DNA of 62,482 nt, taken from the NCBI GenBank assembly GCA_017541975.1, contig JAFXYB010000023.1, positions 1-62,482 of the forward strand, in the 5' to 3' direction. The notes beneath the pieces were generated by a model, which was given only the letters and a program-made list of their open reading frames with translations, was not told the DNA's origin and ran no database searches. Both the position numbers and the translations under genes were made by a program. Position 1 is the stretch's first letter. Every line of letters begins with the position of its first letter. Positions 20,801 through 39,487 of the stretch are shown piece by piece. The DNA is from a bacterium (GTDB taxonomy: Bacteria > Bacillota_I > Bacilli_A > Izemoplasmatales > UBA1188).

Positions 20801-22141
20801 TTATTTCGTATCAAAATTGATTATTTTTACTTCTCTCTTGCCGCAAAACGCTTCCATGACAGCAACTATGGCCTTGGAAATATTCTGATCCATAGTAATC
20901 ATTTCATCCTTGGATTGATTTATCAGTTTGTTGAAGTAAGCAATCTCGTATCTGAGCCCCTGTCCTTCAAACTGGTAAAAATACTTTTTATTATCCGAAA
21001 AGTTTTCATATCTCACTTCAAAATAGCTAGTTTTCCACCAAGGAGACGGAACATAAATATATCCTTTCGTTCCAGAAATAACTAAATCACCTTCCGATTT
21101 TACAAACTTGGCGACTTTAATAGAAGCGACTGCTGATTCGTAAATGAAGTTGATTTTAGTAAATAAATCTATATCGGTTTGATTTTGTAAAGAAGTCACG
21201 ATTTCAGCGCTTTTATAATTCGTACCAAGAATATCAAATACTGGAAGCAACGCAACAGGACCCCATGAGTAGATACTATTCCATCCTGGTGCATCAGCAT
21301 TTTTGCTTAAACTAGTGCAAGTTGCATCAACAGAAACAACATTTCCTATAATGCCACTTTTTGCCAAAACAACCATTCTTGAAAAAGCCGTACAATAAGC
21401 GGTGCGAATTCCATCCAAAAGGATAACGCCATTATCTTTTGCCAATTCAATTAACTCTTGAGTTTGAGAGGTAGATAGCGTGATAGGTGATTCACAAAGG
21501 ACATGCTTATGATTAATTAGCGCCGTTTTTATCTGTTCGTAATGTTTGACTGGTTCTGAATGAATGTGTACCGCGTCAACATTCTCCAACAATTCATTAT
21601 AATCCTTTGTGATAATTGGTAATTGCTTTATTTGCTCGTCAAATATAGCCACATCGTTAGTACATATTCCAACAACTTCAACACCATTTACGAACTTGCT
21701 TTCTTCATAAAACTTATTAAGGAATCTGGATTCACCAACCAAGCCAAGTCGAATATTGTTTGATTCTTTTCTAATATCGCTGCTCGAAACGCCTTCTGTG
21801 CGATCCAAATAAACAACTTCACAGAATTCTTTTAGATAATCAAATTTTCCGACCCAGTCTGAACCAACTGTAAAAATATCAATGCCGTATTTCTTTATAT
21901 CATCAATTTTTTGCCCTTCATATTCCTCAACAATAATCTCATCTGCAATATTTAAGGATCTAATCGCTTCGATTCTTTCAATTAATGATTGCTGAACATT
22001 AATTTTTCCTCTAGCCTTATCAAAATCATCGCTGGTCACGCCTACAATTAAATAGTCGCCAAGTTTTTTTGCTCTTTCAAGCAAGCGAATATGACCATAA
22101 TGTAAAAGATCATATGTTCCGTATGTAATTACTTTTTTCAT
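20801..22141 (-). CDS. fusion of TagD-like cytidylyltransferase and Gfo/Idh/MocA-like oxidoreductase
   Basis: Residues 1-~130 form a nucleotidyltransferase of the glycerol-3-phosphate cytidylyltransferase type: GTYDLLHYGHIRLL with the HxGH motif, VGVTSDDF, LIERIEAIRSL, and TEGVSSSDIR in place of the usual ISTTxI motif. Residues ~131-446 resemble Gfo/Idh/MocA dehydrogenases, but the glycine loop (LGLVGESRFL) is degenerate. The EKP motif reads CESP, losing the usual catalytic Lys. It should activate an alcohol phosphate with CTP. The start overlaps the preceding stop (ATGA). It is the last gene of the operon and pairs logically with the CDP-glycerol-type transferase and the TPP/aldolase genes. 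Confidence 0.8.
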   Translation of the reverse strand: MKKVITYGTYDLLHYGHIRLLERAKKLGDYLIVGVTSDDFDKARGKINVQQSLIERIEAIRSLNIADEIIVEEYEGQKIDDIKKYGIDIFTVGSDWVGKFDYLKEFCEVVYLDRTEGVSSSDIRKESNNIRLGLVGESRFLNKFYEESKFVNGVEVVGICTNDVAIFDEQIKQLPIITKDYNELLENVDAVHIHSEPVKHYEQIKTALINHKHVLCESPITLSTSQTQELIELAKDNGVILLDGIRTAYCTAFSRMVVLAKSGIIGNVVSVDATCTSLSKNADAPGWNSIYSWGPVALLPVFDILGTNYKSAEIVTSLQNQTDIDLFTKINFIYESAVASIKVAKFVKSEGDLVISGTKGYIYVPSPWWKTSYFEVRYENFSDNKKYFYQFEGQGLRYEIAYFNKLINQSKDEMITMDQNISKAIVAVMEAFCGKREVKIINFDTK

Positions 22142-23748: not shown

Positions 23749-23763
23749 TTGGCTCTCCTTGTT

Positions 23764-24765
23764 TCACTTGATTGTTTTTATTCTTTCCTCGACTAGATTT
23801 GCGGAAAACACTATTTTCTCGTTTTCAGTTAACGTCTTCAAAAAATCCTCAAAGATATTTATTTGATATCCTTTGTCGATAAAATAATTGGCATAATTCG
23901 GATTGCAGTTATTCACCGAACAAAGATATGAGTACATAGAATATCCCCATCTCTTCTTGTTGTATGTATCTAAAAGAAAGCAATTGAATGCATCCACTAC
24001 TTTCTCTGTTTTATATCTTTGGGAGTAATGCTCATTAATAAATTCCATTATAACTTCCGTATTCAAATTACCAGCCCCACGGCCCATTCCCATTATGCTT
24101 GAATCAATGCATAAATCACGATTCAAATTAAGTGACAAACACATCTCTGCACAACTGAGAGCTTGAAGTTTATTATTGTGTCCATGGTATCCAATTTTTA
24201 TGTTCGGTATTAAATACTTATCAGCCAATTCCATATAGTGTTTTATTTGTGACGATGATTGAGTTCCCCATGTATCAACAACATAAAGCGCGTAAGGTTC
24301 TAATTCGTTTGAGGCTTCAATCATCTCAATAAACTCTTCATCGCTATATTGTTCAACTCTCGATGGCTGAATTGTTATCTTATATCCTTTTTCCTTAACC
24401 TTTTTGCAATACTCAATATGTTCTTTAAGACACCTCTTCCATATGCAAATTCTAATTAAGTCAACCCCTCCCTCAACATAAGGAGATAGATTATTCAGAT
24501 CAAATGGATTGAAAGCCTCAATCATCGCCGAATAAATAACATCTTTTTTTCTCTCGGCTATTAAAGCGTTGATGTTCTCTATACATGAAAAAGCGGTTCT
24601 GCCATTGTCTTGTGTTTCGTTTCTCAAAAACCCAAGTTCTAAAATGTTTACACCAGAATTTTCTAAGTTTGAGATAATGTTTTTTATGTTTGAAAATCCA
24701 AAGTTCCAATCGTTAACGTAACCACCATCTCTCAAAGTGCAATCTAATAAGTAAACATTATTCAC
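23764..24765 (-). CDS. HMGL-type aldolase/Claisen enzyme (DRE-TIM barrel)
   Basis: The 333-aa protein is a DRE-TIM metallolyase-like barrel: LLDCTLRDGGYVNDW (5-19), LELGFLRNET, RICIWKRC, GYKITIQPSR, YVVDTWGT and KIGYHGHNNKLQALS with the His-x-His metal pair. The nearest named groups are 4-hydroxy-2-oxovalerate aldolase and homocitrate/HMG-CoA lyase. The start is GTG at 24765 after TAGGAGGACATATTT. It lies between two TPP enzyme genes with 13-15 bp gaps, so it likely acts in the same pathway, making or cleaving a hydroxy-keto acid. The substrate is not predictable. Confidence 0.82.
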   Translation of the reverse strand: MNNVYLLDCTLRDGGYVNDWNFGFSNIKNIISNLENSGVNILELGFLRNETQDNGRTAFSCIENINALIAERKKDVIYSAMIEAFNPFDLNNLSPYVEGGVDLIRICIWKRCLKEHIEYCKKVKEKGYKITIQPSRVEQYSDEEFIEMIEASNELEPYALYVVDTWGTQSSSQIKHYMELADKYLIPNIKIGYHGHNNKLQALSCAEMCLSLNLNRDLCIDSSIMGMGRGAGNLNTEVIMEFINEHYSQRYKTEKVVDAFNCFLLDTYNKKRWGYSMYSYLCSVNNCNPNYANYFIDKGYQINIFEDFLKTLTENEKIVFSANLVEERIKTIK

Positions 24766-24777
24766 AAATATGTCCTC

Positions 24778-26463
24778 CTAGAGTTTCATCAACTCATCAA
24801 ACAATTCTTTATCCATTTCAGGAAGTTGGTTTTGAATTAGTTCAGTTCTCCCAAAATTTGGAATAAGGTTAGTATCGCCTTTATAACGGATTTCAATAAA
24901 AGCAGGACCCTCTGGCAAATTTGAAACTATATCTACATCGTCAAGAGACTCGATTCTGAAATATGGTAGTTCAAACGCATTGGCGATTTTTTCAAAATCA
25001 GGAGACTCCCATCCGCTTGATTCGGTCGTGAGACTATAATTCCTGTTAAAATTTCTCTCCTGAAATCCTCTAATCATTCCAAGAGCAAAATTATTAAAAC
25101 AAAAAACCTTAATAGGCAGCTTCTCGCGCTTGATTAGCTGGAGTTCTTGGATATTCATCATTAGTCCACCGTCGCCATTAAAGCAATAAACTTCTTTGCC
25201 GGTAGCACAATGAACGCCAATGGAGGCAGGAAGAGAATAGCCCATGGATCCGTGCCCAGCAGACATATATACGCTTTGTCCGTCTAGGTGAGCAGATTGA
25301 GCAAACCAAATTTGGTTCTGACCAACATCTAACGTAATTAAACATTCTTTAGGCAGCAACTCGCTAATTGCTGAATAATATCTGTTGTACTCTTGGTCAT
25401 CATATCCCAAGAGCTTAGACTTAATACGAATACACACTGCATTCCAATCTTCAAAATTATAGTTTAAGTGGCTGATTGCAGAAAGGAATGTTTTGGCGTT
25501 GAGAAAAACACCAAGCTCATCATCAACAACCTTGTTGACTAATTGATATTTATCAACATCTATTCTAATCAAAGTTTTATCTTTGAAATATCTGTCTCTT
25601 TGCAACCCAATCTGTCGAATATCAAGTCTGCTTCCAATCGAAATTACCAGATCAGCTTTACCAAAAACAAAGTTGGCATATCGTTGTCCATTTGTTCCTA
25701 TAAAACCGAAATAGTGTTTACTGTCGAAAGGAAACACATCAAACGCAGGAAGGCTTGACACAACCGGTATATTCCATCTTTGCGCAAGTTGTATTATTTG
25801 TTTTTTTGCATCAGCGATTTTAATGCCGTTCCCAATCAACATGATTGGCCTTTTAGATTTCTTTAATATTGAATCCAGATGGGCAACATCAAATTCGTCA
25901 TCATCCTTCAATTCTACTTCATAACCCTTTAACATAGAAACATCTATTTCTGCTCTTTGTATGTCAGCAGGCAAATCAAGCAAAACGGGGCCAGGATTTC
26001 CATTGAAGGCCTCAAAAACAGCTTTTTCTAAGCACCACCTAATGTCAAAAGGATTATCAACGCGAACAGAATATTTGGTTATGCTTTTGACCATACTGAC
26101 AACATCTGTTTCTTGAAAACCCCGTTGCCTTATTCCTTCTCGATCGTTCAGCGCATAAGTATCTACTTGTCCAGTAATAAACAAAACTGGTATAGAATCA
26201 AAATATGCATTTGCAATACCAGTAACCAAATTCGTCGCGCCTGGGCCTGAAGTGGAGAAAGCGACGCCTAATTTGTTTGAAGCCTGTGCATATCCGCACG
26301 CGGCAAAAGCAGCCCCTTGCTCATTGTAAGTCACATGTGATTTGATGCTTTTAGTTTTCGACAAAGAATCAATCAAATGGCAAATAACTCCACCTGGGTA
26401 TCCAAAAACACGATCAATCTTATGAGCATTTATGAATTGAACTATATAATCTGTTACTTTCAT
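24778..26463 (-). CDS. thiamine-pyrophosphate-dependent enzyme, acetolactate synthase-like (paralogue 1)
   Basis: The 561-aa protein has RVFGYPGGVICHLIDSL, TYNEQGAAFAACGYAQA with the catalytic Glu, FITGQVDTYALNDREGIRQRGFQETD (closest to true acetolactate synthase), a central domain with LIGNGIKIADAK, and a C-terminal TPP motif GDGGLMMNIQELQLI ... FNNFALGM. GAGGTAAATC precedes the ATG. It begins the TPP-aldolase-TPP-cytidylyltransferase block. It probably condenses pyruvate-derived acetaldehyde with a keto compound for the polysaccharide rather than making branched-chain amino acids. Confidence 0.85.
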   Translation of the reverse strand: MKVTDYIVQFINAHKIDRVFGYPGGVICHLIDSLSKTKSIKSHVTYNEQGAAFAACGYAQASNKLGVAFSTSGPGATNLVTGIANAYFDSIPVLFITGQVDTYALNDREGIRQRGFQETDVVSMVKSITKYSVRVDNPFDIRWCLEKAVFEAFNGNPGPVLLDLPADIQRAEIDVSMLKGYEVELKDDDEFDVAHLDSILKKSKRPIMLIGNGIKIADAKKQIIQLAQRWNIPVVSSLPAFDVFPFDSKHYFGFIGTNGQRYANFVFGKADLVISIGSRLDIRQIGLQRDRYFKDKTLIRIDVDKYQLVNKVVDDELGVFLNAKTFLSAISHLNYNFEDWNAVCIRIKSKLLGYDDQEYNRYYSAISELLPKECLITLDVGQNQIWFAQSAHLDGQSVYMSAGHGSMGYSLPASIGVHCATGKEVYCFNGDGGLMMNIQELQLIKREKLPIKVFCFNNFALGMIRGFQERNFNRNYSLTTESSGWESPDFEKIANAFELPYFRIESLDDVDIVSNLPEGPAFIEIRYKGDTNLIPNFGRTELIQNQLPEMDKELFDELMKL

Positions 26464-26496
26464 GATTTACCTCAAATAACCGTTCAGCGCTGAAAA

Positions 26497-27630
26497 CTAA
26501 TGATCATTGACAAGTTCTAATACTTTTTCAACCACTCTTTTCGTGCTTTTTCCATCAGAAAAAGAATGAATATACGGCAAAACTTTTTTTCTTTCAGATG
26601 CATAAAGATCGACGCCATTGCCTATTCTGTCCAGAAAAGCACATAGGTCATTCGAATTAAAAAGTTTTTCGCCGCCTGAGCAAATAAAATCATATTCTTT
26701 TACTAGCCCCGGATTCTTTGAATACTCTTCAATATCTTCCCAAATTAAGCCAATAGGCTTATTGCAAAGAAGATAATCGGAGTAAATTGATGAATAATCA
26801 GTCAATAACGCATCACTAGATCCTATTAATTCATAGGAAGTAAATTGATGATTGGAAAAGAATTCATCATCAATAAATAATATGTTTGAAAAAGAATAAT
26901 GTTTGATATCATCAGTCAGCTGGGCAAAATGTGGCTTAACAATGATTAAAATGGAATTCTCCTTTGCAGCAGCATTAATTTTATTTGATTCCTCTTCATT
27001 CCATAAAAATTGAATAGGCTTAACGGATCCTGTTTTCTGACCACCTTTAAATTTTTTTACTGTCGGGTACCATACCACAAACCGTCTATACTCACCAAAA
27101 ATCAAGGATAGTTTTTTTGGCCTATCGAACAAAATATCCGTCCTAGGAAAACCCAAAGTCAAAATTATAGAAGGATTTACCTTAAGTTGGTCTGCTAATA
27201 TTGGTTTTAAAAACTCACTTGTACCTATTACATAATTAACATAATTTGGTGCATTATAATATGAGCTTGCGTCTTTAAGAGGCGAACCATGGCACAAATA
27301 AATTGTAGTTTGTCCTTTTCGATTGCTTCCAACAAATCTATTGCAACAAATAGTAAGAGAAGCTCTATGATTTAGAAGAAAGTTTTTAAATCTGTGTTGT
27401 TTCACATTAAAATAAATAACGTTTTTGATTTTTGGATATGACAGAGTTGAACACTCAAAACACATCCATATCAATTTGTATTTTTGATTTAAGCCTCTCC
27501 TTATTAATTCGTCAAAAACAGGCTTGGCATTGTCAGATAAATCTGGACAACTTTCAAATAGAATTATTTTTTGGAGTGGCAAAAAAACATCTACCAACCA
27601 AACAAAGATTCTTTTTAATAGTTTAATCAT
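26497..27630 (-). CDS. CDP-glycerol glycerophosphotransferase family protein (TagB/TagF-like)
   Basis: The 377-aa protein has a basic amphipathic N-terminus for membrane association, then the Glyphos_transf family features: LTICCNRFVGSNRKGQTTIYLCHGSPLKD (catalytic His in CHG), LGFPRTDIL, and LLTDYSSIYSDYLLCNKPIGLIWED near the C-terminus. The family transfers glycerol- or ribitol-phosphate from its CDP derivative to a glycan. No tagD or tarI is found except the cytidylyltransferase fusion at the operon end, suggesting that product is the donor. It overlaps the flippase gene by eight bases. Confidence 0.85.
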   Translation of the reverse strand: MIKLLKRIFVWLVDVFLPLQKIILFESCPDLSDNAKPVFDELIRRGLNQKYKLIWMCFECSTLSYPKIKNVIYFNVKQHRFKNFLLNHRASLTICCNRFVGSNRKGQTTIYLCHGSPLKDASSYYNAPNYVNYVIGTSEFLKPILADQLKVNPSIILTLGFPRTDILFDRPKKLSLIFGEYRRFVVWYPTVKKFKGGQKTGSVKPIQFLWNEEESNKINAAAKENSILIIVKPHFAQLTDDIKHYSFSNILFIDDEFFSNHQFTSYELIGSSDALLTDYSSIYSDYLLCNKPIGLIWEDIEEYSKNPGLVKEYDFICSGGEKLFNSNDLCAFLDRIGNGVDLYASERKKVLPYIHSFSDGKSTKRVVEKVLELVNDH

Positions 27631-29212
27631 TGCCTTTCTCTCTATTGAAAAATCTATATAAATACTTCTTTACGATATTGATATTAATAACGGCGCACAC
27701 CAACAAATAAAGAATTACAAAAATAGACCCCTGTATAATAAAAATAAACAAATGAGATTCTATAGTCTCAAATAGTAAACTGGTCATTACAAATACAACA
27801 GCAAAACATAATAACCCAATTAACATATATATTAATAGAGTGGTTATATATTTCCTGACTGGAAGATATATTTTTACTTTATTATAAATATTCATCGCAA
27901 TCCAATGGGAACAAATTGTCGTGACCACTGTGCCACATAAGCAGGCATATATCGCATACTTTGGATCAAAAATGTTTAGACACAAAATTGAAAGCCCAAC
28001 ATTCGCGAGTGCAAGAGTAAAGTATGTCACTGCCCTGAATTTATGTTTGTTTTCAGCTCTTTGAATCTCAATCGAACTATTAAGAGTTAATGGCCCTAAA
28101 CTTAAAATCATAAGGACAGAGCAAACATAGTATGTTTCTATTCTATTATCCCCGATCCACCAGACAACAAAGTCTTTTCCACAAGTTAAAAAACCGAAAG
28201 CCACACAACATAATATAATAGATTGGAGTTTTGATATCTTTAAAAAAACTCTATTTAATGATTCCTGATCATTAGAAGCAACCATCTCGTGAATTGATGG
28301 AGCAAAAACACCAGATACCGCGACGGACATCGTAACCAAATAACCTGCTAATTGCTGAGCCATTTGATATTTTGTAACGTTCTCTGGTGAAGAAAAAAAG
28401 CCAAGAAGAGTCTTGTCAACATTCGTATTAATTTGATCAACAATAGAGTTAAATAAAAGAATGCTTGAAAATATAATGATTGATTTCAATAATGACTTAT
28501 TTTCATTTAACAAAGTTCGAGAAAATGAAATGCCAATTTTTCTATAACAATAAAACGCATTAATTGCAAAAGTAATCAATGTGATTATAATTGTAAAACC
28601 AGCAATAATAACTACGTTTTTAGTAAAATAAGCAATCAAAAAATGTCCAGCAAAATTTAAAACGGTCGTAAAGATTACAAGTATTTTTCCAAATACAAAT
28701 TTTTTCTTGTAATTAATAAAAAGAGTAAAAATGGATGTAGGCATTGTTAACCCAATATTGAATATTGATAGTCCAAACAATAAATACATCATTCGGCTAT
28801 CTTCCCAACTATAAGTGCCAATTCTTATCCTACACATATAAAGAGCCAGCACTATACCCAACCCAACAAAAAGGACAAAAATACCTAAGATCGAAAGAAG
28901 CTTTAGATAAATAGTGTTGATCCTTCCAACTGTTTCATCACCTTCTTGACTGTCTAATGTTGCATATCTTAAAAACGAGGCAGCTAGTGCAGAAGAAACA
29001 ATAGTTAGCCATGATGTTATGGAATTAACAAAGGAATATAGCCCGTAATTATAATCACCAATAAGATTTAAAACCCTATTTGTTATGAAGAGTGAACCAA
29101 TGATGGAAACACCCATTCCGACATATGACAAAACAACACCTAGTTTAATATTCTTTGAGTCACTTAATCCTTTCACTTTTGTACCGCCTAATTTAATTGA
29201 ATGACTAATCAA
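27623..29212 (-). CDS. polysaccharide flippase (Wzx-like, MOP superfamily)
   Basis: The ~529-aa protein is hydrophobic throughout with about 12-14 membrane segments. It shows the Wzx/MATE-like pattern (VVLSYVGMGVSIIGSLFITNRVLNLIGDYNYGLYSF at the N-terminus). It should flip the undecaprenyl-linked repeat unit. Two starts are possible: TTG at 29212 overlapping the gmhA stop, or GTG at 29176, which has AGGCGG at a good distance and may be the real one. Confidence 0.85.
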   Translation of the reverse strand: MISHSIKLGGTKVKGLSDSKNIKLGVVLSYVGMGVSIIGSLFITNRVLNLIGDYNYGLYSFVNSITSWLTIVSSALAASFLRYATLDSQEGDETVGRINTIYLKLLSILGIFVLFVGLGIVLALYMCRIRIGTYSWEDSRMMYLLFGLSIFNIGLTMPTSIFTLFINYKKKFVFGKILVIFTTVLNFAGHFLIAYFTKNVVIIAGFTIIITLITFAINAFYCYRKIGISFSRTLLNENKSLLKSIIIFSSILLFNSIVDQINTNVDKTLLGFFSSPENVTKYQMAQQLAGYLVTMSVAVSGVFAPSIHEMVASNDQESLNRVFLKISKLQSIILCCVAFGFLTCGKDFVVWWIGDNRIETYYVCSVLMILSLGPLTLNSSIEIQRAENKHKFRAVTYFTLALANVGLSILCLNIFDPKYAIYACLCGTVVTTICSHWIAMNIYNKVKIYLPVRKYITTLLIYMLIGLLCFAVVFVMTSLLFETIESHLFIFIIQGSIFVILYLLVCAVININIVKKYLYRFFNREKGND

Positions 29213-29862
29213 TTTTGATAAAAGTTTTCTTCAAGCATCAAACATAAGCAGTGATATATGGGAAGATGCAATTCTTGAATCATAAAAGTTTCAAAAGAAG
29301 GTGCTTTGATGGCAACGTCCGCAGCAACAGCCAGTTCACCGCCTTTTTGCCCAGTAAGCCCAATTACTTTTAAGCCTAATGCACGAGCAACGACTGTGGC
29401 ATTCATAATGTTTTTAGAATTGCCCGATGTTGATATCCCTAATAAAACATCCCCTTCTTTTCCGTAACCATAAACTTGTTGAGCGAAGGTCAAGAGACCG
29501 CCATCTTTAACATCATTTACATATGCGGTGTTCAAACTTTGGTGCTCACATAAAGCAATAGCAGGCAAGCCACCTTGCAATTTTTCGGCGAGCTCTATTC
29601 CACGGACAGAATCAATACTCTTTAGTTTATTTGCAAACTCATCAGAGCACTTCCTTGGAAATTTGAAACCCTTCATCAATTCTCCAACAATGTGTTCTGC
29701 ATCTGCACAGCTTCCACCATTTCCTGCAATTAGGAGTTTGTGGCCTGTTGAGAAGCACTCCTCTAAGATATCATACGCAGCAATAATGGAGTCTTTACAT
29801 TCCGCTAATACAGAATACCTTTCAATTAACAAGTTTATGTGTTTTTGTAGCTTTTCGTTCAT
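29209..29862 (-). CDS. gmhA: phosphoheptose isomerase
   Basis: The 217-aa SIS-domain protein contains AGNGGSCADAEHIVGELMKGF and LGISTSGNSKN, as in GmhA, which converts sedoheptulose 7-phosphate to D-glycero-D-manno-heptose 7-phosphate. It is the first step of a complete GDP-heptose pathway encoded by three adjacent genes. The ribosome binding site is weak and the gene starts four bases after the previous stop. Confidence 0.9.
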   Translation of the reverse strand: MNEKLQKHINLLIERYSVLAECKDSIIAAYDILEECFSTGHKLLIAGNGGSCADAEHIVGELMKGFKFPRKCSDEFANKLKSIDSVRGIELAEKLQGGLPAIALCEHQSLNTAYVNDVKDGGLLTFAQQVYGYGKEGDVLLGISTSGNSKNIMNATVVARALGLKVIGLTGQKGGELAVAADVAIKAPSFETFMIQELHLPIYHCLCLMLEENFYQN

Positions 29863-29865
29863 ATT

Positions 29866-31113
29866 CTAGTTTCTGCTCAATATGCTATTTACGGCATCTA
29901 GCAAATTGACTCCTTCCTGTAATTTTATCGATTTGCATCCGGCATTTTTCCCTGCCAAAACATCGTTATCATCATCGCCTATCATCCATGATAGTGGTAA
30001 GTCGATGTTAAAATCTTTTGCCGCCTTAAGCAACATCCCGGGTTTTGGCTTTCGACATCCGCATTCGATTTTCAATTCTGGCCTTTCTCCTTCATATCCT
30101 TTGTGTGGATGATGAGGGCAATAATAAATTCCATCAATGAATGCGCCTTCTTTGCCAAGAAGCGTCTCCAACTTATTGTGGATTTCATCTAGTTCAGAGA
30201 AAGATACTTCTCCACGAGCAATCACTGGTTGATTTGTCACTATTATCGTGAGATAGCCGGAAGAATTGATTCGCTTAATCGCTTCTGTAACTCCATCTAT
30301 CAATTCAAGCTGTTTTATATCTCTCAGAAAACCAACATATTTATTAATAGTGCCATCCCTATCAAGGAAAATGGCTTTTTGCTTGTTTATCAAATTCTTT
30401 CTTTGAATGATTCCATTTTCACAGTCGCTGCATACGGCATAATATCTATTCGGAGTTCCCATATCTTTTACATACTCAGGCGAATCATAAGCGAACATTT
30501 TTCCCGATCCAGATAGAGGCTTTAGAACTTGCCTATCCAGATCAATCTTTGGTGTATTGATAGAAACATCTAGTACTTTCTTGTTGATGACATGTAATCC
30601 GGCGTTCACCCTGTTTTTATACCATTCGGGTCTTTCATCTTCTTTCAAAAGCCACTTTGTAACAGATTTGTTCTCATCGCAAATTAAAAGACCACTATCA
30701 TAAGGATGCGAATTGGGATGTGTGAACAATGTTACTAGCCCTCCTTTTTCCGTGTGATAGTTAACAAATCTATTAAAGTCAATATTAAACAAAGAGTCGG
30801 CATTCAAAAGAAGGAAATCGTCCGTAAGCTTGTCTTTGATTCTAAATAAAGCGCCTGCGTTGCCAAGTGGTTCCTTTTCAACAAAATAATCAATTTTGAC
30901 GCCAAATTCGCTACCATCCTTGAAATAATCAATGATGGCATTGGCCATGTAACCGACCGTTATGAGAATGTCTGTGAACCCTTGATCTCTCAAACATTCA
31001 ATTTCATGCTGCAAAACTGGTTTGCCACAAATCGGAATCATTGGCTTAGGAATGTCGCTAGCAATCGAAGCAATTCTAGTTCCTATCCCACCAGCCATTA
31101 TTACTGTTTTCAT
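29866..31113 (-). CDS. hddC-gmhB: bifunctional heptose-1-phosphate guanylyltransferase / heptose-bisphosphate phosphatase
   Basis: Residues 1-~230 are a sugar nucleotidyltransferase (VIMAGGIGTRIASIASDIPKP, YFVEKEPLGNAGAL, LLNADSLFNIDF) of the HddC type. Residues ~240-415 are a HAD phosphatase of the GmhB type (IFLDRDGTINKYVGF, IIVTNQP, YYCPHHPHKG, CGCRKPKPGM, MIGDDDNDVLAGKNAG) with the zinc-binding Cys/His loop. HddC and GmhB are usually separate genes, so this is a fusion of two steps. It follows hddA by five bases. Confidence 0.9.
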   Translation of the reverse strand: MKTVIMAGGIGTRIASIASDIPKPMIPICGKPVLQHEIECLRDQGFTDILITVGYMANAIIDYFKDGSEFGVKIDYFVEKEPLGNAGALFRIKDKLTDDFLLLNADSLFNIDFNRFVNYHTEKGGLVTLFTHPNSHPYDSGLLICDENKSVTKWLLKEDERPEWYKNRVNAGLHVINKKVLDVSINTPKIDLDRQVLKPLSGSGKMFAYDSPEYVKDMGTPNRYYAVCSDCENGIIQRKNLINKQKAIFLDRDGTINKYVGFLRDIKQLELIDGVTEAIKRINSSGYLTIIVTNQPVIARGEVSFSELDEIHNKLETLLGKEGAFIDGIYYCPHHPHKGYEGERPELKIECGCRKPKPGMLLKAAKDFNIDLPLSWMIGDDDNDVLAGKNAGCKSIKLQEGVNLLDAVNSILSRN

Positions 31114-31118
31114 TTAAT

Positions 31119-32132
31119 TCACCCTTCTTTACTTGAGACTAAGTCAAATGCTTCCGGCGCGTAATAAATGACTCTTGTCCCGCCGTTTTCAAAGAGAAAA
31201 GGTACCTCCATGAGCTCCGAAAGTTCCATTCTCACAAACTCTTGTTTGTCTTCATTCACATAAAACAGCAAAAAGCCACCACCACCGGCCCCCAAGAGTT
31301 TTCCACCCAAAGCACCAGCTTTTATTCCTCTGTCATATAATCTGTCTATTGAAGTCTTAGATATGTCATTGCCAGTTTGTTTTTTAAGTTGCCACGTCTT
31401 GTCGAGCAATCTGCCAAAATCATCCAAATCTCTAGTTTTGTTTTCAAGTATCTCCTGAGCCTCATCAACCAACGATAGCATACTTGTTAATTGTTGTTGC
31501 TTTTCTTCAATACTTGATTTTGTGCTTTTTTGAATATCGGCTGAAAATCTAGTAAACCCCGTAAAAAAGAGCATTAATCTCTTATTCAAAGCTTTTTTTC
31601 TGTCCGGAGAAATGATAATTGGCGTCACACGATATCCGTTTTTATCAAAATCAATTCTGTTTAGGCCTCCAAAAGATGCTGCTATCTGATCTTGCCAGCC
31701 ACCAGCCTCATCACAAAGAGTTCTTTCTAGATAAATTGCATCGTCGGCAAGTTGTTTTTTAGAAGCATACTTACCTTTTAAACAATAAAAAGCATTTAAA
31801 AGGCCAACAGCGAATGTTGATGAAGTTCCTAATCCTGTTCTTCCTGGTAAGTCCGCATCATACGAAATATATAACTCATGCATATCAAGCATCTTCATCG
31901 CGTTGCGAATCATAGGATGAACAATATCGTCAAGTTTATTTACTCTCTCTGTTTTAGAATACTTAATTTCGGTCGTATAATCAAAAAACCTCGGCAAGTG
32001 ACGCGCGGTGACATATACATACTTATCGAATGTAGTTGATATTACAGCGCCTCTTCTTTCGTTGAAAAACTCCGGCATGTCAGTGCCGCCACCAAAAAAG
32101 GACATTCTAAAAGGGGTTTTTGTGATAATCAT
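31119..32132 (-). CDS. hddA: D-glycero-alpha-D-manno-heptose 7-phosphate kinase
   Basis: The 337-aa GHMP kinase has TPFRMSFFGGGTDMPEFF, GRTGLGTSSTFAVGLLNA (the PxxxGLGSS-type ATP loop) and GKLLGAGGGGFLLFY near the C-terminus. It phosphorylates heptose 7-phosphate at C1 to the alpha-1,7-bisphosphate, feeding the GmhB and HddC domains of the next gene. GGGAGGCC precedes the ATG, which overlaps the polymerase stop. Confidence 0.9.
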   Translation of the reverse strand: MIITKTPFRMSFFGGGTDMPEFFNERRGAVISTTFDKYVYVTARHLPRFFDYTTEIKYSKTERVNKLDDIVHPMIRNAMKMLDMHELYISYDADLPGRTGLGTSSTFAVGLLNAFYCLKGKYASKKQLADDAIYLERTLCDEAGGWQDQIAASFGGLNRIDFDKNGYRVTPIIISPDRKKALNKRLMLFFTGFTRFSADIQKSTKSSIEEKQQQLTSMLSLVDEAQEILENKTRDLDDFGRLLDKTWQLKKQTGNDISKTSIDRLYDRGIKAGALGGKLLGAGGGGFLLFYVNEDKQEFVRMELSELMEVPFLFENGGTRVIYYAPEAFDLVSSKEG

Positions 32133-33430
32133 AAGGCCTCCCTACTATTTACCATCGCTTTGGAATAAGAAAAAGAATGGTATCCATATCTTAAAGCGTT
32201 TTGTTTGCGCAGTCTTGAAATTGATTCATTGGCCGTCGAATAATGCTTCATACATAATACTAAGCCCCAGAATGTAGTTGTCATTCTTATATCTGTAGTA
32301 ATAAATGTTTCGAAAAAGAAACCCAATAAAAGCATTAATAAAACTGCAGCCACCGCTAATTTTGAATACTTATTCCATTCAGTTTTCCTTAAAAAAGTAA
32401 AAACAATCAATAAAAACAATACCACACCAATTATTCCATGTTCTGCCAAAAGAGCTACCCATTGGTTATGACTATTGCCTATATAATATGGAGCATATGT
32501 TATTCGTGATATTCTATACAGAATGAGTCCGCCACCTCCGCCAAACAGGGGGTTATCAAAAAAGACATTTAAGCCCACAGTAGCCAACCGCTTACGTTCT
32601 ATACCACTATAAAAAGTGTCAGAATTTGAAACAAAAACTCTGGATATAAAATTAGATAAAAAACTAGGATACAAGACAGCTATGCCAATCAAAATCACAG
32701 CCCCAAGAATAATCAATTTCAATTTTGTAGATAATTTTTCTTTTAGAATTGCGTAAATCAAAAATAAGGCGGTCAACAAAATTGCACTTCTCGTCTGCAT
32801 AACTATCATGCTTAACAAGAACAAAGCAAGAAACAGGAACAATATCTTTCTTTTTGTTTTCATGGCAGTGATGTAGCAAACTACAAATGACATAAAAACA
32901 AAATCGGCTGATGCGGTAGCGGCTCCAATTGTAGTAAAGCCTCGAGATTCAACTATGCTATTCTGCCAACCAAGCCATTTACCAAAAAGAGAGAGCATAA
33001 AAACCTGCATAGCAACAACGGCTCCAACAACAATCATTGCATACATAAATAGTTGTTTGTATCGCTCGTTTTGAATTGAGAGTACAGATTTAACAAACAA
33101 GATAGGTAAAACAAACACAAGCAGTTCATCGATTGTTTCCCACAATGACAAATCGCTATTGCCCTTTAATTTAGCCAGCGAAGTTAAAAAAGAAAAAAAA
33201 CAAAATAAAACAAGTAAAATAGATAATCTTCTGTCTTTAAAAAGCCGCCTATTGACAAGAGGGATAATAACAAGAAGGATAATCGCGCCAACTATAATAC
33301 TTAATTGAAATCTAGCATTTCCAAGCTCAATTGAATACCGAACATTAATTGAGTTAGGAATACACGTCCAGCATATATAGACAAAGCATAACAAAAGGAA
33401 TTTTATTCTGTCTTTAGCCAATGTCGTCAT
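32129..33430 (-). CDS. O-antigen-ligase-type polysaccharide polymerase (Wzy/WaaL family)
   Basis: The start is set at 33430 (433 aa), ATG after AGGAGAAGATTA; a longer frame to 33481 overlaps the upstream glycosyltransferase more. It has 10-12 membrane segments and a large external loop carrying LFGGGGGLILYRI and YIGNSHNQWVALLAEHG, the Wzy_C/O-antigen ligase signature with its conserved His. It should join repeat units outside the membrane. Confidence 0.85.
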   Translation of the reverse strand: MTTLAKDRIKFLLLCFVYICWTCIPNSINVRYSIELGNARFQLSIIVGAIILLVIIPLVNRRLFKDRRLSILLVLFCFFSFLTSLAKLKGNSDLSLWETIDELLVFVLPILFVKSVLSIQNERYKQLFMYAMIVVGAVVAMQVFMLSLFGKWLGWQNSIVESRGFTTIGAATASADFVFMSFVVCYITAMKTKRKILFLFLALFLLSMIVMQTRSAILLTALFLIYAILKEKLSTKLKLIILGAVILIGIAVLYPSFLSNFISRVFVSNSDTFYSGIERKRLATVGLNVFFDNPLFGGGGGLILYRISRITYAPYYIGNSHNQWVALLAEHGIIGVVLFLLIVFTFLRKTEWNKYSKLAVAAVLLMLLLGFFFETFITTDIRMTTTFWGLVLCMKHYSTANESISRLRKQNALRYGYHSFSYSKAMVNSREAL

Positions 33431-34577
33431 TAATCTTCTCCTTCGTAAAAATCTTTTGATACATCCTAGAACTAGAATCAATCGAATAATTATCTAAATA
33501 TACTTTCCTACTAGCAATACAAATTCTCTCATAATCATCAGGGGTATTACTAATAGTACTCCTCATTGAATTGATGAATTGTTCCTTCGTGTTGCATCTA
33601 TATATTGAGTCCGAATCAACATATCCAACCATAGCGTGATCGGTTGACAAAATCGGCAACCCATACATCAACGCTTCTGCAATTTTAACTTTCATTCCTG
33701 CACCAGAAAAAATGGGCGCAACATATGCAAACGCATTCAAAAAAAGATCGCTCATCTCTGCCGGATTAGAAAGTAGAACAACATTTTTAAGAGCGCTAGA
33801 TGCGGAAATAATATCATTATTAGGCCTTGAACCAGCAATAACGAGTTTGAAATTACAATATTGATCCATGGCTGAAAAAGAACTCCATACTTCCCTCAAA
33901 AACCAAAGAATTCCATCAGCGTTTGGTCCGAACCATAGACTTCCCGTAATTAAAAAATAGTTCGCTTTCTTTTGATTCAGATCGCCAACATTTTTATCAG
34001 TAATGCATACTGGATTACAATAAATTGATTTGGTTATGTTTTCATATAAAGAATGAACACGATCAATATCAGTCTGGGTCAAGCAAATTAATGAATCCGC
34101 CATTTTAACCGAACGTCTTTCCATTCTAGAAAAAAATCGACTTTGTAAGAAATTAGCGATTGTCTTTTTGTTTTTATATTGGTTTAAGTAATAGTCTTTT
34201 TCGACGTTATGCATGCGTACCAATGTTTTTACGCCATTTTTTTTAGACAGTTTAATTAAATAAGGGTATTTGGAGAATTCAATATGAACAAAATCGTACT
34301 GTTTAAAATCAATTCCATTTAATGTGTCAAGCAACGAGTAACAATAGCCACTAACTATTCCTTTTTTAAGGCCTAGTAGCCTCTTTGGCCATCTTTTGTC
34401 ATAATTCAAATAGAAAGACTTATTTATTTTAATTTGATTTTCAATTGCTTCATCAATCTTAGGCCCAATATAGTCAACGATGCCGCATTTCGATAGAGAA
34501 AAAAGTGATTGAATAATCCCTATTCCTCCTCCAGAGTTATATGATGGCGCCTCCAACGAAATCTCCAATATTCTCAT
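33414..34577 (-). CDS. glycosyltransferase, GT4 type
   Basis: The 387-aa GT-B protein has an N-terminal LEISLEAPSYNSGGGIGI, a central HNVEKDYYLNQYKNK and LITGSLWFGPNADG, and a C-terminal FSGAGMKVKIAEALMYGLPILSTDHA donor-binding segment with the E-x7-E-like pattern. It transfers a sugar from a nucleotide donor on the cytoplasmic face. AAAGGTGATTT precedes the ATG, which overlaps the upstream stop. Confidence 0.85.
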   Translation of the reverse strand: MRILEISLEAPSYNSGGGIGIIQSLFSLSKCGIVDYIGPKIDEAIENQIKINKSFYLNYDKRWPKRLLGLKKGIVSGYCYSLLDTLNGIDFKQYDFVHIEFSKYPYLIKLSKKNGVKTLVRMHNVEKDYYLNQYKNKKTIANFLQSRFFSRMERRSVKMADSLICLTQTDIDRVHSLYENITKSIYCNPVCITDKNVGDLNQKKANYFLITGSLWFGPNADGILWFLREVWSSFSAMDQYCNFKLVIAGSRPNNDIISASSALKNVVLLSNPAEMSDLFLNAFAYVAPIFSGAGMKVKIAEALMYGLPILSTDHAMVGYVDSDSIYRCNTKEQFINSMRSTISNTPDDYERICIASRKVYLDNYSIDSSSRMYQKIFTKEKINDDIG

Positions 34578-35479
34578 AAATCACCTTTCTTGAATGTTCT
34601 AGAAATTCTCCTTTTGAAGCCTCTAAATAACTCTTTGAAAACAAACAACATAAATCTAAACTCGTACGATTTTCTAGTGCCTTTTAATTGATATTGACGC
34701 TTTAAAAAACTAAAATGTCTTTTCAAAAACAAATTGTTATTTTTTATTTTGTAGTACTCGTATTTAAATCTATTTTTGCTATGTTGACCACCGTTTTTAT
34801 TTATTGATGGAAAATGAAAGCAACTAGTATGAGAAGTATACTGAATCATGTAGCCTTCTTTGATTAGTTGAACTTGGGCGTCTGTTTCTTCTCTATAGCC
34901 ATTTACCTTATAGCCCTCAAAATACGTAACGTTTTCATAGCCCTCTCTGGGCACCATAATCAGTGCATGTCCCCAAGGAACAAAGCTGTCATCGATATTC
35001 TTAAAACGATAATAGCCTTCCAATGTTCGATAATCGAATACAGGCTTATTTATCTTAGATTGGATTTGTATAGCACTATCGACTTCGTTTTTATCCATAG
35101 CAGGAAGAATTCCATAAAAAATTGAACCAAAACAAGCTTTCTTTTCTCCCTGTATTTTGTTAAAGAGGACAAAAGAATAATCATCGGATAAGAACGCATC
35201 GTCCTCGCCCCATAAAATATAGTTACCTTTTGCAATTGATAGACCTATATTCCTACTTGCTCCTGCACCCATATTTTTGGTGTTTTTATGATAAACAATA
35301 GATAGAGCGGGATACTTTTGCTTAAATCCTTCTAACGTCTTTTCATAAGACAAAGTACTAGCGTCATCAACAATAATGATTTCTTTTAAGCCGTACTGAA
35401 TAGCATAAGAATCTAGAACTAAAGCTAAGGTGTCTGGTCTATTGAATGTTGGAATAATTATTGATAATTCAAGCCCCAC
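34574..35479 (-). CDS. glycosyltransferase, GT2 type
   Basis: The 301-aa GT-A protein shows SIIIPTFNRPDTLALVLDS, IIVDDAST, GASRNIGLSIAKGNYILWGEDDAFL (the DxD-type metal site) and WGHALIMVPREGYENV. It adds a sugar during repeat-unit assembly. The start is GTG at 35479 with AAGGAG seven bases upstream. Confidence 0.85.
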   Translation of the reverse strand: MGLELSIIIPTFNRPDTLALVLDSYAIQYGLKEIIIVDDASTLSYEKTLEGFKQKYPALSIVYHKNTKNMGAGASRNIGLSIAKGNYILWGEDDAFLSDDYSFVLFNKIQGEKKACFGSIFYGILPAMDKNEVDSAIQIQSKINKPVFDYRTLEGYYRFKNIDDSFVPWGHALIMVPREGYENVTYFEGYKVNGYREETDAQVQLIKEGYMIQYTSHTSCFHFPSINKNGGQHSKNRFKYEYYKIKNNNLFLKRHFSFLKRQYQLKGTRKSYEFRFMLFVFKELFRGFKRRISRTFKKGDL

Positions 35480-35528
35480 TATATTTCTCCTTTTTAAACA
35501 ATACTGCTTTACAAATATTGTCTCCCTT

Positions 35529-36599
35529 TTAATGTAGTTCTTTCATGAAATTGGACAACGTTTCTTCAAAAGCTTCAAAAGAATAATTTTCCATAAATAA
35601 GTTATACGAACTCGAATTAAATTTTGAATCTTCTGTCGAATCAAACAATTTTTCCAAACCTATAATGAATTCGTTTGCCTGGTTGCAAAGAAACAAACCA
35701 TCTGCTGTTTCATATATGCCAGCAAAAGCTTCATTTGTCCCAAATACTATTTTTCCATATCTAAGTGCTTCGATTGTTTTTGTTTTCATTCCAGAACCTG
35801 AAAAAATGGGACATACAACAGCACTTGCATTAACCATGGTTTTTGCAAAATCTTCTACATATCCGAGAAGTATTACTTTGCTTTCATCATAATTAAATTG
35901 TCGAATATAATTGCAGCAATCTCCAACAACATATACTTTGAATCTAATATAAGGTGAAACGTTATCTAAAAACCATTTTATTCCTTGCTGATTTGCATAA
36001 AAATTTGAACCTAGAAACAAAACATACTTTTCGTCGTTATTTGTTATAAGCGATTTAAGGTAAGTTTGATCAATTTTTGAAAAAGAAATAGGTAAAACCA
36101 AATCGGCCTTCTTGCCATAAAGTTTTAATAGTTCACCATTGTCTCTTTCATTTAAAACGATTATTTTGCTATTTAATTCTGTAATGTTACTTTCAATCCT
36201 TGTGATATAAGAATAAAGTTTTTTGTTTCCTAATGTCCTGGTAATTTCGAACTTATCTCGATAATATTTCTGCTCAATATTTTGAAAATAAACAATTGTT
36301 TTTTGTGAGCGGAAAAATTTATGTATATATTCCAAAAAGAGAGAAGACATACAAAAAACAAAATCATATTTTTCACATGCTATTCGTTTCATTTCTCTCC
36401 GAACTTGCCACGTTTCACAAAAAGGCGTTCTAAATATCAAAGATTTAACGAATGTGTAAGCAGAAGGCTTTGGAAACTGAAATACATCAATGTTATTTGA
36501 ACCAAAACAATTACTCAAACACTTAAATACATTATTATAAGTTCCAACTGTTGCATCGTTTTTGTGATTGTCATATTTAGTCAAAATGAGAATTTTCAT
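35529..36599 (-). CDS. glycosyltransferase, GT4 type
   Basis: The start is set at ATG 36599 (356 aa), which has GAGG at a good distance; a TTG two codons earlier is an alternative. GT-B features are KILILTKYDNHKNDATVGTYNN, FLGSNFYANQQGIKWF and SGSGMKTKTIEALRYGKIVFGTNEAFAGI. It is similar in layout to the gene at 33414-34577. Confidence 0.85.
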   Translation of the reverse strand: MKILILTKYDNHKNDATVGTYNNVFKCLSNCFGSNNIDVFQFPKPSAYTFVKSLIFRTPFCETWQVRREMKRIACEKYDFVFCMSSLFLEYIHKFFRSQKTIVYFQNIEQKYYRDKFEITRTLGNKKLYSYITRIESNITELNSKIIVLNERDNGELLKLYGKKADLVLPISFSKIDQTYLKSLITNNDEKYVLFLGSNFYANQQGIKWFLDNVSPYIRFKVYVVGDCCNYIRQFNYDESKVILLGYVEDFAKTMVNASAVVCPIFSGSGMKTKTIEALRYGKIVFGTNEAFAGIYETADGLFLCNQANEFIIGLEKLFDSTEDSKFNSSSYNLFMENYSFEAFEETLSNFMKELH

Positions 36600-36614
36600 A
36601 TCCAACGCCTCATA

Positions 36615-37499
36615 TCAATCTCTCTTCAAAGATACAATCATCTTGCAACACTGAACTGGAGCAGATAAAAAAGAAAGAAAGCCACATAAAAAGAATGAAG
36701 AAAGTCTACTTATGCGTTTATATGCGAAGGAAAGAACGGCAAAATGCCTCATCCTTACATACCTTCTGTTTTTCAAAGTAAGTTTACCAAAATATTGCTT
36801 TTTGAAATTGTAAAGTCTATTTTCGCCGTCAATCTTCTGTTGACCGCTTGATAAACCGCCTTCACCAGTGTGAACATATGCTTTAACTTCACAAGCATTA
36901 CAATATACAAATTTCCCGTTGTGCTCGATTGCTTTCATCATAAGATAAAACTCGTCGCCAACATCAATTGCTACAAAACCACCAAACGACACTAAATAGT
37001 CTTTTTTAAACATCATAGTGTCCGTGCCAGTCATATGATGCTTCAAGTGACACAACAATAAATCATTTGCCTCAGGCGTCAAAAGATAGTCTCTTTTTCG
37101 AATTTCTGACAAAGTCTCATTTTCGTTATATAATGATAAATTCATCAAGGAATAATCTGCACCACAATCTATCATTTGTTTGACCTGAACTTCTATTTTG
37201 CTTGGCAAATATAAATCATCATCATCTAAAAATGTGATATATTCACCCTTTGCACTATTGATTCCTATATTACGGGTTTTAGCAGATCCTTGGTTGTTTG
37301 CGTTTTGTATATAGTTGATTTGAAGACTTGTTCTAAATTTATTAACTATAATCTCAACCTTTTTATTCCATTCCACATCAGCATTATCATCAACAATAAC
37401 AACTTCAAAGTCCTTATATGTTTGGTTAGTGAGAGACTCTAAAGCATTAGCAAGCGATTGTTCTCTTTTATATGTAGCAATTACAACGCTAACCATCAT
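36615..37499 (-). CDS. glycosyltransferase, GT2 type
   Basis: The 294-aa GT-A protein has VSVVIATYKREQSLANALES, VVIVDDNAD, GSAKTRNIGINSAKGEYITFLDDDD (DxD site) and a basic C-terminus with a hydrophobic patch for membrane binding. GAAGAGGAAAAAG precedes two adjacent ATG codons. It overlaps the sugar transferase stop. Confidence 0.85.
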   Translation of the reverse strand: MMVSVVIATYKREQSLANALESLTNQTYKDFEVVIVDDNADVEWNKKVEIIVNKFRTSLQINYIQNANNQGSAKTRNIGINSAKGEYITFLDDDDLYLPSKIEVQVKQMIDCGADYSLMNLSLYNENETLSEIRKRDYLLTPEANDLLLCHLKHHMTGTDTMMFKKDYLVSFGGFVAIDVGDEFYLMMKAIEHNGKFVYCNACEVKAYVHTGEGGLSSGQQKIDGENRLYNFKKQYFGKLTLKNRRYVRMRHFAVLSFAYKRISRLSSFFLCGFLSFLSAPVQCCKMIVSLKRD

Positions 37500-38128
37500 T
37501 CTTTTTCCTCTTCTTGTTTATGCATTTCTCCGGTTCCGCCTTCCACCACGCCTTCGTGTTTGAAAACGATGAAAACGGTTTTGGAAAGGAGACCGATGTC
37601 ATAAAAGAATCCCCGCTTCTGAACATACTCTCCATCGAATTTGGCTTTGACAGGGATTTCCAATTCGTCGCGCCCAGAAATCTGTGCCAACCCAGTCAAT
37701 CCAGGCTTTACTTCATTCGCGTGGTACTTATCCCTCTCGGCAATTAAGTCATCCTGGTTCCATAAAGCCGGCCTAGGGCCAACAAAGCTCATCTGGCCAG
37801 CAAATATATTAAAGAGCTGTGGAAGTTCATCTATAGAGGTCTTTCTAATAAATTTCCCTACCTTTGTGATGTGGGCATTAGCATTTCCAAGTTGGTGAGT
37901 TGGAGCATTTGGATCTGTATCAGTGTACATTGATCTAAATTTTAAAATCTTGAATATCTTTTTGTTCTTTCCTATTCTATCTTGTTTGAAGAATACTGGG
38001 CCTTTACTATCGCATTTAATGGCAATTGCCACAATAAACATAGGAAAAGCGAGTAATACAATAGCTATAAAAGAACAAAATATATCAAAACACCTTTTAA
38101 AAAAGGCATATAGTGGTTTCTTTTTCAT
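37496..38128 (-). CDS. initiating undecaprenyl-phosphate sugar-1-phosphate transferase
   Basis: The 210-aa protein is a short-form bacterial sugar transferase: basic N-terminus KRCFDIFCSF and one membrane segment, then FFKQDRIGKNKKIFKILKFRSM, FIRKTSIDELPQLFNIFAGQMSFVGPRP and KPGLTGLAQISGRDE. It attaches the first sugar phosphate to the lipid carrier. It marks the start of the GC-richer part of the operon. Confidence 0.9.
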   Translation of the reverse strand: MKKKPLYAFFKRCFDIFCSFIAIVLLAFPMFIVAIAIKCDSKGPVFFKQDRIGKNKKIFKILKFRSMYTDTDPNAPTHQLGNANAHITKVGKFIRKTSIDELPQLFNIFAGQMSFVGPRPALWNQDDLIAERDKYHANEVKPGLTGLAQISGRDELEIPVKAKFDGEYVQKRGFFYDIGLLSKTVFIVFKHEGVVEGGTGEMHKQEEEKE

Positions 38129-38541
38129 TATTCAGAGAACTCCCATGAATTTGGAGATTTTGGCTTAATCTCTCTTATTTCTATTGGCTGATTATCAGGA
38201 TCATTAATGAAAATAAATCTTCCCTTGTTATCGGTTTTTATTTCTGAACCATATTTTTGAGCTAAGTCCTCAATTGATTCAACTTGAAAACAAAGATGTC
38301 TAAGTCCATATGCCTCAGGATTAGACAATCTTTTTGGATGTGTTGAATCAACATATATTTCTAGTGTTATAAGTCCATTTGAAAGATAGATAAGTTCATC
38401 ATGACATTCAGGTCTTATTGTTCTTGCTTTTTCAATGAATCCAAGTTCCTTGTAAAAATCAACTGTTTTATTTGATGATGCAATAATTGCTATGTGGTTA
38501 AGTAGTAACATGTTTTTTAAAAAAATCATAATAAAAACCAA
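38128..38541 (-). CDS. VOC family protein (glyoxalase/bleomycin-resistance fold)
   Basis: The protein (up to 137 aa) has the VOC pattern LNHIAIIASSNKTVDFYKELGF, LRHLCFQVESIEDL and FINDPDNQPIEIRE. The start is unclear: the frame opens at 38541 within the terminator hairpin, and an internal ATG (MLLLNHIAI) fits the family N-terminus better. It lies between loaP and the sugar transferase, an unusual place. A metal-dependent lyase or binding role is likely; the substrate is unknown. Confidence 0.75.
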   Translation of the reverse strand: MVFIMIFLKNMLLLNHIAIIASSNKTVDFYKELGFIEKARTIRPECHDELIYLSNGLITLEIYVDSTHPKRLSNPEAYGLRHLCFQVESIEDLAQKYGSEIKTDNKGRFIFINDPDNQPIEIREIKPKSPNSWEFSE

Positions 38542-38555
38542 CTAAATGTTGGTTT
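38531..38555 (-). terminator. intrinsic terminator overlapping the loaP stop codon
   Basis: On the minus strand AAACCAAC and GTTGGTTT form a perfect 8-bp stem with loop ATTTA, followed by TTATTATT. The loaP stop TAG lies inside the hairpin. All polysaccharide genes are downstream, so full expression needs read-through. Confidence 0.8.
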
Positions 38556-39096
38556 CATCATCTACTACTTTTTCTCGTATGAAATCTATCCCAAGATCTG
38601 CGGTTATTATTTGACCTAGAAGAGGTAGTTCTACTCTAACTGTTCGTTTATGGAAATCAGGTTTTATGATTTTTCCTTCAAAACCTTTTAGTGGACCATC
38701 AACTACTACTATTTCATTTCCTTCTTTTAGATAGATATGAGAAATATCAATGGTTCTTTTAGAACCAGCTTTGCCCATTAGGATATCTATTATTTCTGCT
38801 TCATCATCTGATAGAGATTCTATGTAGTCTTTATGTTTTGTATCTATTCCAAGAAGCTTTGTGAGAGTTTTTATTTTATATAATTCTTTTTTGAGTTCTA
38901 CTGGTGTATTTGTCTCTATAAAGAGATATCCAGGGAAACAAGTTTCTGTAATTTCGAAAGAAACGCCTTCTTTTTTTCTGATGCGTTTCTTTTTAGGAAT
39001 AAAGATGTCAATAAAAAGAGAAGGATTTAAATCTCTTATCATTCTCTTTCTTGTTTCTTCTTCTTTTTTACTGAATACTTGAATTACATAATACAT
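38542..39096 (-). CDS. loaP: LoaP/RfaH-type NusG paralogue (antiterminator)
   Basis: The 184-aa protein has an N-terminal NGN domain (YYVIQVFSKKEEETRKRMIRDL, FIPKKKRIRKK, ETCFPGYLFIET) and a C-terminal KOW domain (about 122-157: LKEGNEIVVVDGPLKGFEGKI). Together with its place as first gene of a long polysaccharide operon, this identifies LoaP. It should bind elongating RNA polymerase and allow read-through of terminators in the operon. A terminator covers its own stop codon and another hairpin with a T-run lies in the 5' leader. No Shine-Dalgarno sequence is visible before the ATG. Confidence 0.88.
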   Translation of the reverse strand: MYYVIQVFSKKEEETRKRMIRDLNPSLFIDIFIPKKKRIRKKEGVSFEITETCFPGYLFIETNTPVELKKELYKIKTLTKLLGIDTKHKDYIESLSDDEAEIIDILMGKAGSKRTIDISHIYLKEGNEIVVVDGPLKGFEGKIIKPDFHKRTVRVELPLLGQIITADLGIDFIREKVVDDETNI

Positions 39097-39465
39097 AAAA
39101 AGAGTTGCCTACGGCGTGCGCATATGTTTTTTATATATGTGCAGGATGTGATTTCATATGACACAGTGGAATATATATAAGTGTGCTTAGCTTCGCTTAT
39201 ATTCTTCCAAAGGTATTTTAATAATAGATGAGTGATAAAAATAATGATATTTTTATATGTGAGTGTTTTTGAATTCACTTACATATCAATATATTTTAAC
39301 ACATCCAAATAAAAAAATATATGTAATATATTTATAAAATCAATTTGTTGTATATTGGAATAAAAAATAAAAATGCATATTTTATGTGCTTTATGCACAC
39401 GTATATGCATTTTTATTGTCATGAAAATTAATTCATAAATGTTTTTATAAATATATTGGATTTTT
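39097..39465 (-). promoter_or_regulatory. long structured 5' leader of the loaP/polysaccharide operon
   Basis: About 365 bp separate the likely -10 from the loaP start. On the minus strand the leader holds a strong hairpin with a T-run (39366-39412) and weaker stems: ATATGTAAGTG/CACTCACATAT (39257-39288), GAATATAAG with a CTTATAT-type partner (near 39165-39205), and GCACATAT/ATATGCGC just before the gene. No open reading frame of note is seen. Such leaders fit control by processive antitermination or RNA folding. Confidence 0.55.
39366..39412. terminator. strong hairpin with T-run in the loaP leader
   Basis: AAAAATGCATAT and ATATGCATTTTT are perfect 12-bp arms enclosing an inner TGTGC-ataaa-GCACA stem. 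On the minus strand TTTTTATTTTTTA follows. It could end the Fic transcript or attenuate transcription into loaP. Confidence 0.75.
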
Positions 39466-39466
39466 T

Positions 39467-39487
39467 ATTATACGACATTAAATGTCG
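39467..39487 (-). promoter_or_regulatory. possible loaP promoter (-10) with an adjoining palindrome
   Basis: A perfect TATAAT (39472-39467, minus strand) is immediately preceded by the dyad CGACATTTAATGTCG (39473-39487). No good -35 is seen, which suggests an activator- or repressor-controlled promoter. Confidence 0.5.

Follow-up and report, generated by a model that had tools for sequence, protein, structure and literature searches.

A LoaP-linked leader RNA and a terminator over the loaP stop codon: a candidate self-opening gate before a polysaccharide operon

An operon in an Izemoplasmatales bacterium begins with loaP, a gene for a NusG-paralogue antiterminator, and a terminator hairpin encloses the stop codon of that gene (Table 1), which raises the question of how the genes behind the hairpin come to be read. 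The operon lies in the window, by which we mean the whole stretch of DNA analysed (62,482 nucleotides). Against the curated model NF033641 antiterm_LoaP the loaP product scored 130.8 bits (cut-off 125), and in the search for an NGN-then-KOW arrangement it scored 39.2 bits for Pfam NusG (cut-off 22.2) and 20.5 bits for KOW, just below the cut-off of 22.3. The score for the UpxY model NF033644 was 68.6 bits, below its cut-off of 100. In an alignment read by eye, R40/K41 of the window's LoaP stand at the E-R of the solved chain 8f5g, the B. velezensis numbering having been deduced; we take the RNA-contact residues of B. velezensis LoaP to be E40/R41. When 90 genomes of the order were searched at the NF033641 cut-off, LoaP was found in three, all of the window's genus, namely the window's own genome (G000), G002 and G005.

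Table 1. Positions of the features of the loaP locus within the window.
Feature	Position	Strand	Description	Score or model
Conserved LoaP-linked RNA element	39105..39208	(-)	Variable stem P1 with conserved head, UGUCAUA, second hairpin, then loaP start	
Conserved head, 20 nt, AAGCGAAGCUAAGCACACUU	39179..39198	(-)	Candidate LoaP recognition hairpin	
Second hairpin of the element	39118..39142	(-)	7 pairs, 95.2% of cells paired, 2 pairs changed on both sides (3 sequences)	
Distal 15-bp hairpin	39366..39417	(-)	Not conserved; 5' half can instead form a UACG-loop hairpin	
Terminator hairpin enclosing loaP stop codon	38534..38556	(-)	T-rich tract after it, to about 38519	-9.1 kcal/mol
loaP	38542..39096	(-)	NusG-paralogue antiterminator, 184 aa, first gene of the operon	NF033641 + Pfam NusG
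Polysaccharide operon behind loaP	20801..38541	(-)	Co-directional: glyoxalase-like gene, bacterial sugar transferase, 4 glycosyltransferases, Wzy-like gene, heptose-phosphate genes, flippase, glycerophosphotransferase, others	
Polysacc_synt_2 gene	43120-44949		Followed by AsnC-type regulator and aminotransferase	

The biosynthetic genes adjoin loaP and run with it in one direction without large gaps; judged from the sequence, this is a surface-polysaccharide operon of ~18 kb with loaP as its first gene. The surroundings of loaP differ within the genus. A Polysacc_synt_2 gene ends ~110-125 bases before loaP in both G002 and G005, and the pair of AsnC-type regulator and aminotransferase genes follows loaP in G005. 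Since these gene orders differ from that of the window, loaP of the window has been parted from the Polysacc_synt_2, AsnC and aminotransferase genes, with the RNA element described below kept beside it. Between those genes and loaP the window holds a gene (39920-41110) for a Fic-domain protein with a winged-helix end; loaP of G005 adjoins the same genes.

The initial annotation placed a terminator hairpin over the loaP stop codon, and this proved to be real. The hairpin, GAAACCAACATTTAGTTGGTTTT, consists of a stem of 9 pairs, 3 of which are G-C, and a loop of 5 nt; it is followed by a T tract and holds the TAG stop in its loop and the first base of its 3' arm. Seven sites on the window's minus strand satisfy a strict rule (stem of at least 9, GC of at least 3, 6 T in 8), compared with 2 in total among 12 one-strand shuffles. 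The hairpin is the only one of the 7 with zero gap to the next gene and the only one inside the operon, from 38.5 to 20.8 kb. A looser scan for terminators came out near chance (3 found, a mean of 1.9 expected), and only the strict rule together with position sets this hairpin apart. The relative G002 is alike: an 11-bp hairpin covers its loaP stop codon, and within an 18-kb stretch no other hairpin on the operon strand passes the strict rule. In G005 the element and loaP are present, and the rule found no terminator at the end of loaP; with one of three same-genus loci lacking it, the description of the arrangement as a clean built-in switch goes too far.

To see how widely the terminator recurs, we compared 20 loaP loci, 3 from the window's genus and 17 from families f15 and f21. 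A terminator lies at the 3' end of loaP in 11 of the 20, where shuffles lead one to expect 0.56, and overlaps the stop codon in 6 of the 11; the second copy of a duplicated cassette counts once in each figure, so that distinct loci give 10/19 and 5. The remaining 9 have no such terminator by the rule, and L059 and L060, which look terminator-like by eye, were counted as misses. The distance from the T run to the next start codon is 17-56 nt in L052, L062, L056, L061, L063 and L067 (L053, L054 and L058 were left out because the start codon was unreadable). Since the next start lies only 17-56 bases from the T run in these loci and a few bases from it in the window, there is little or no room for a promoter behind the terminator. 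The duplicated cassette belongs to G158, in which the unit of element, loaP and terminator is present twice, identical at 701/705 nt between unrelated flanks.

These observations bear on a reading in which loaP forms a one-gene unit closed by an ordinary terminator, while a promoter within the loaP coding sequence serves the polysaccharide genes. In the available text of PMC12691694 the placement of terminators near stop codons is described as routine for Bacillus; in G002 the hairpin is followed by about 70 bases before the next start, which is enough for a promoter. However, the next start in the window overlaps the T tract or follows it within a few bases, such terminators occur at just 2 of the window's 38 close gene junctions, that of loaP included, and both copies of the G158 cassette stop right behind the terminator, each before a different gene. 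We regard a one-gene unit as improbable. The earlier argument that LoaP must act before its own gene ends if the operon is to be read fits the comparative data (terminators in 11/20 loci, close next starts and an element before loaP), but does not extend to G005, which lacks the terminator.

All 3 leaders of the genus (f1) have in common a stem with the head AAGCGAAGCUNNGCACAC, the sequence UGUYAUA, a second hairpin and then the loaP start. Over the whole structure 94.1% of cells are paired and 4 pairs have both sides changed, in 3 sequences only. The exact head core occurs in 3 of the 90 genomes of the order, one copy each and exactly those with LoaP, and 2 other genomes match with one mismatch. 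A covariance model (R3) built from the window's element and the two others scores the former at 91 bits, and a scan of the 90 genomes returned the same 3 elements, one each just upstream of loaP, and none in the other 87; since R3 was built from these elements, the scan speaks to copy number and absence elsewhere and is not an independent discovery. The 3 genomes have UAA, UAG or UCG as the loop of the head, with C-G as the closing pair; a canonical UNCG loop is absent from the window's element, and a UACG hairpin occurs only in a distal, unconserved repeat. A pseudoknot between the loop and the 3' motif of the element was considered and dropped as inconsistent by eye. The exact f1 head pattern was also met in 13 stretches of viral contigs; visual inspection of their flanks revealed no convincing long P1 stem. 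The search for an RNA hairpin that LoaP recognises, which the initial annotation had proposed, yielded a candidate in the conserved head of an element that the annotation had missed, and not in the 15-bp hairpin that it had pointed to.

A second element accompanies loaP in families f15 and f21. Upstream of loaP in 13 of the 17 loci (12 of them distinct) lies a stem capped by AAUCGUYGCNNNGUCRCGUU, followed by a UGUCAUA-like stretch and a hairpin, and GGCGAAGC stands ahead of the Shine-Dalgarno in 11 of the 12 distinct elements. One pair of the head covaries from C-G to U-A over 12/12 sequences (8 and 4), better than in the RNAalifold variant. A covariance model (R1) built from the 12 distinct elements matches directly after loaP, before a sugar-transferase gene, in L051 and L057, matches weakly in L065 (E 0.044) and gave no match in L067. 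Among 395 genomes of the class, R1 at E 0.001 matched 12: G284 and every one of the 11 genomes beyond the window's genus that have LoaP. Within family f15 (43 genomes), R1 at E 1e-4 matched 20 of the 22 genomes whose LoaP exceeds the NF033641 cut-off and 0 of the 21 others (Fisher p 2.6e-10, uncorrected for kinship). The 27 copies of the f15 element fall right before loaP in 21 cases, right after it in 2 and elsewhere in 4. In 26 stretches of viral contigs with exact f15-type heads, R1 supported none.

An element that directly precedes the loaP start could instead be a riboswitch or a translational control of loaP that senses another ligand or protein and is no LoaP site. In keeping with this, a small hairpin of G005 covers the GGAG ahead of the loaP start, and the ligand is unconstrained by any Rfam family: Rfam 15 gave no match in the window at gathering score and nothing near it at 39050-39700, and the 17 related loci had no match at E 0.5. 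However, control of loaP would not be expected to place the f15 element after loaP and before a sugar-transferase gene, as in G360 and G254, or before a sugar-transferase gene on a contig without a LoaP match, as in G578 (one of the 4 copies elsewhere), or between a LoaP-like gene and the prophage terL gene, as in G284. The riboswitch reading is in our estimation quite unlikely, and we prefer that the element serves LoaP, with the proviso that autocontrol is not universal, since the element is downstream of loaP in two loci.

Two further arrangements were seen among these loci. Two genomes in which the element follows loaP have a terminator of 15-16 bp just before the loaP start (L086 1213-1247, L087 12865-12897), and loaP there may itself be under another antitermination control. 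In G190 a second copy of the element (L084 10407-10516) lies ~1.1 kb upstream of the loaP-adjacent one, with no long same-strand gene between.

The second strong leader hairpin of the initial annotation is a real, perfect 15-bp inverted repeat (39366-39380/39403-39417, 22-nt loop), one of 2 perfect 15-bp repeats in the window where 12 shuffles gave 0. Its membership in the loaP leader was not borne out, as promoter scans ran at chance level (36 found, 37.1 expected), so that we claim no loaP start site, and no counterpart was found upstream of loaP in G002 or G005. That this hairpin is a regulated terminator, toggled by LoaP or its absence against the alternative AUGCAUA-UACG-UGUGCAU hairpin, might be suggested by its perfect stem, its T-rich flank and the binding of UNCG hairpins by LoaP (available text of PMC12691694), but is very unlikely, given that it is missing from two relatives, has only 2 G-C pairs, and is opposed by a weak alternative (-4.1 against -21.6 kcal/mol for the stretches folded). 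The distal hairpin may instead terminate the upstream genes, and LoaP would read the conserved element rather than this one. A perfect 15-bp palindrome, CGACATTAAATGTCG, lies at 39467-39487 directly upstream of a minus-strand TATAAT; with up to one mismatch allowed it has no other match in the genome, was not found in 3 relatives, and is a possible operator.

Whether the elements of f1 and of f15/f21 are one family was approached from both sides. R1 gave the window's element a best match of 12.8 bits (E 4.3), which provides no covariance-model link, and in the reverse test R3 did not find the f15/f21 elements. By head score, each genome's own element ranked 171st of 124924 in the window, 7th of 35962 in G002 and 1st of 35962 in G005. 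The two elements share the same layout, an equal head length and UGUYAUA, and a joint alignment is plausible. Kinship of the two is likely but unproven; as the covariance models are unlinked both ways, what we claim from these alignments is a likeness of design and not common descent.

Considering that a LoaP-linked RNA precedes loaP and a terminator lies at its end, the gate could be opened by the gene's own product, and we think it rather probable that it is: LoaP would load at the leader element and carry the polymerase through its own stop-codon terminator. The leader RNA just before loaP would fold into the element, and the capped hairpin would recruit LoaP to the polymerase. A few basal transcripts would yield some LoaP, most of them ending at the intrinsic terminator on the stop codon. 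Once present, LoaP would bind the element in new transcripts and alter the polymerase before the end of loaP, and the modified polymerase would pass the terminator, so that the operon is read through a cis-acting feed-forward gate. LoaP is probably needed to open the rest of the operon. The sequences themselves show the element, its link with loaP, a terminator that recurs and the want of space for a further promoter behind it; binding by LoaP, read-through and the direction of control are the steps that we infer.

Previous work offers partial parallels. In the available text of PMC12691694, LoaP of B. velezensis binds a small hairpin in the leader, counteracts NusA and allows the polymerase to pass intrinsic terminators. 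The dfn and mln systems described there resemble the window in the LoaP family by the curated model, a small hairpin in the leader, intrinsic terminators within a long biosynthetic operon, and loaP near biosynthetic operons. Unlike those systems, the window has the element before loaP itself and the terminator on the loaP stop codon, its operon makes polysaccharide, and its head has no canonical UNCG loop (PMC12691694, same text). Self-control of an operon by a NusG paralogue is not new, since UpxY is reported, in the portion available of the review PMC7819879, to work on the leader that precedes its own gene; the capsule operons of Bacteroides fragilis likewise carry the NusG-paralogue gene within their own polysaccharide operon. 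In contrast, the window's protein falls below the UpxY cut-off, and no stop-codon gate for upxY is mentioned in the accessible text of that review. LoaP of Eggerthella lenta is tied to capsule genes, like that of the window, though the available text of the preprint (PMC13174815) mentions neither a leader RNA nor a stop-codon terminator. No leader RNA upstream of loaP was found in the literature searched, two earlier LoaP papers lying outside it. The EAR element of Bacillus eps operons is a structured RNA within a polysaccharide operon that promotes read-through; like it, the element here is a structured RNA in a polysaccharide operon, and unlike it, neither the window's element nor the related ones matched an Rfam family. 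We know of no use of LoaP by EAR. New here are the leader RNA and the way it is tied to loaP, as well as a terminator placed over the stop codon; it is unlikely that these come from a chance match or an artefact.

A broader proposal is plausible but tentative, namely that these leader RNAs belong to a LoaP-linked family not described before, in which the heads differ by lineage. With loaP and a stop-codon terminator they would form a portable self-opening gate before polysaccharide operons, and a phage would have taken up the LoaP-plus-element pair to control its packaging and head genes. How LoaP acts has so far been established in a single species, on two antibiotic operons. A leader RNA that accompanies LoaP from genome to genome would make LoaP targets predictable from sequence, and placing a terminator over the stop codon of loaP would be a simple all-or-none design for turning on costly surface polysaccharides.

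The prophage of G284 (L085 1322-8296, G284:C104) holds in order the terminase small subunit, a LoaP-like gene, an R1 element, the terminase large subunit (terL), portal and head genes. The LoaP-like product is a NusG paralogue (NF033641 96 bits, phrog_6386), and the element scores 38.7 bits and has a UUCG-loop head. LoaP-type control of the packaging genes is likely from this arrangement, and the prophage copy would mean that phage, too, use this type of control.
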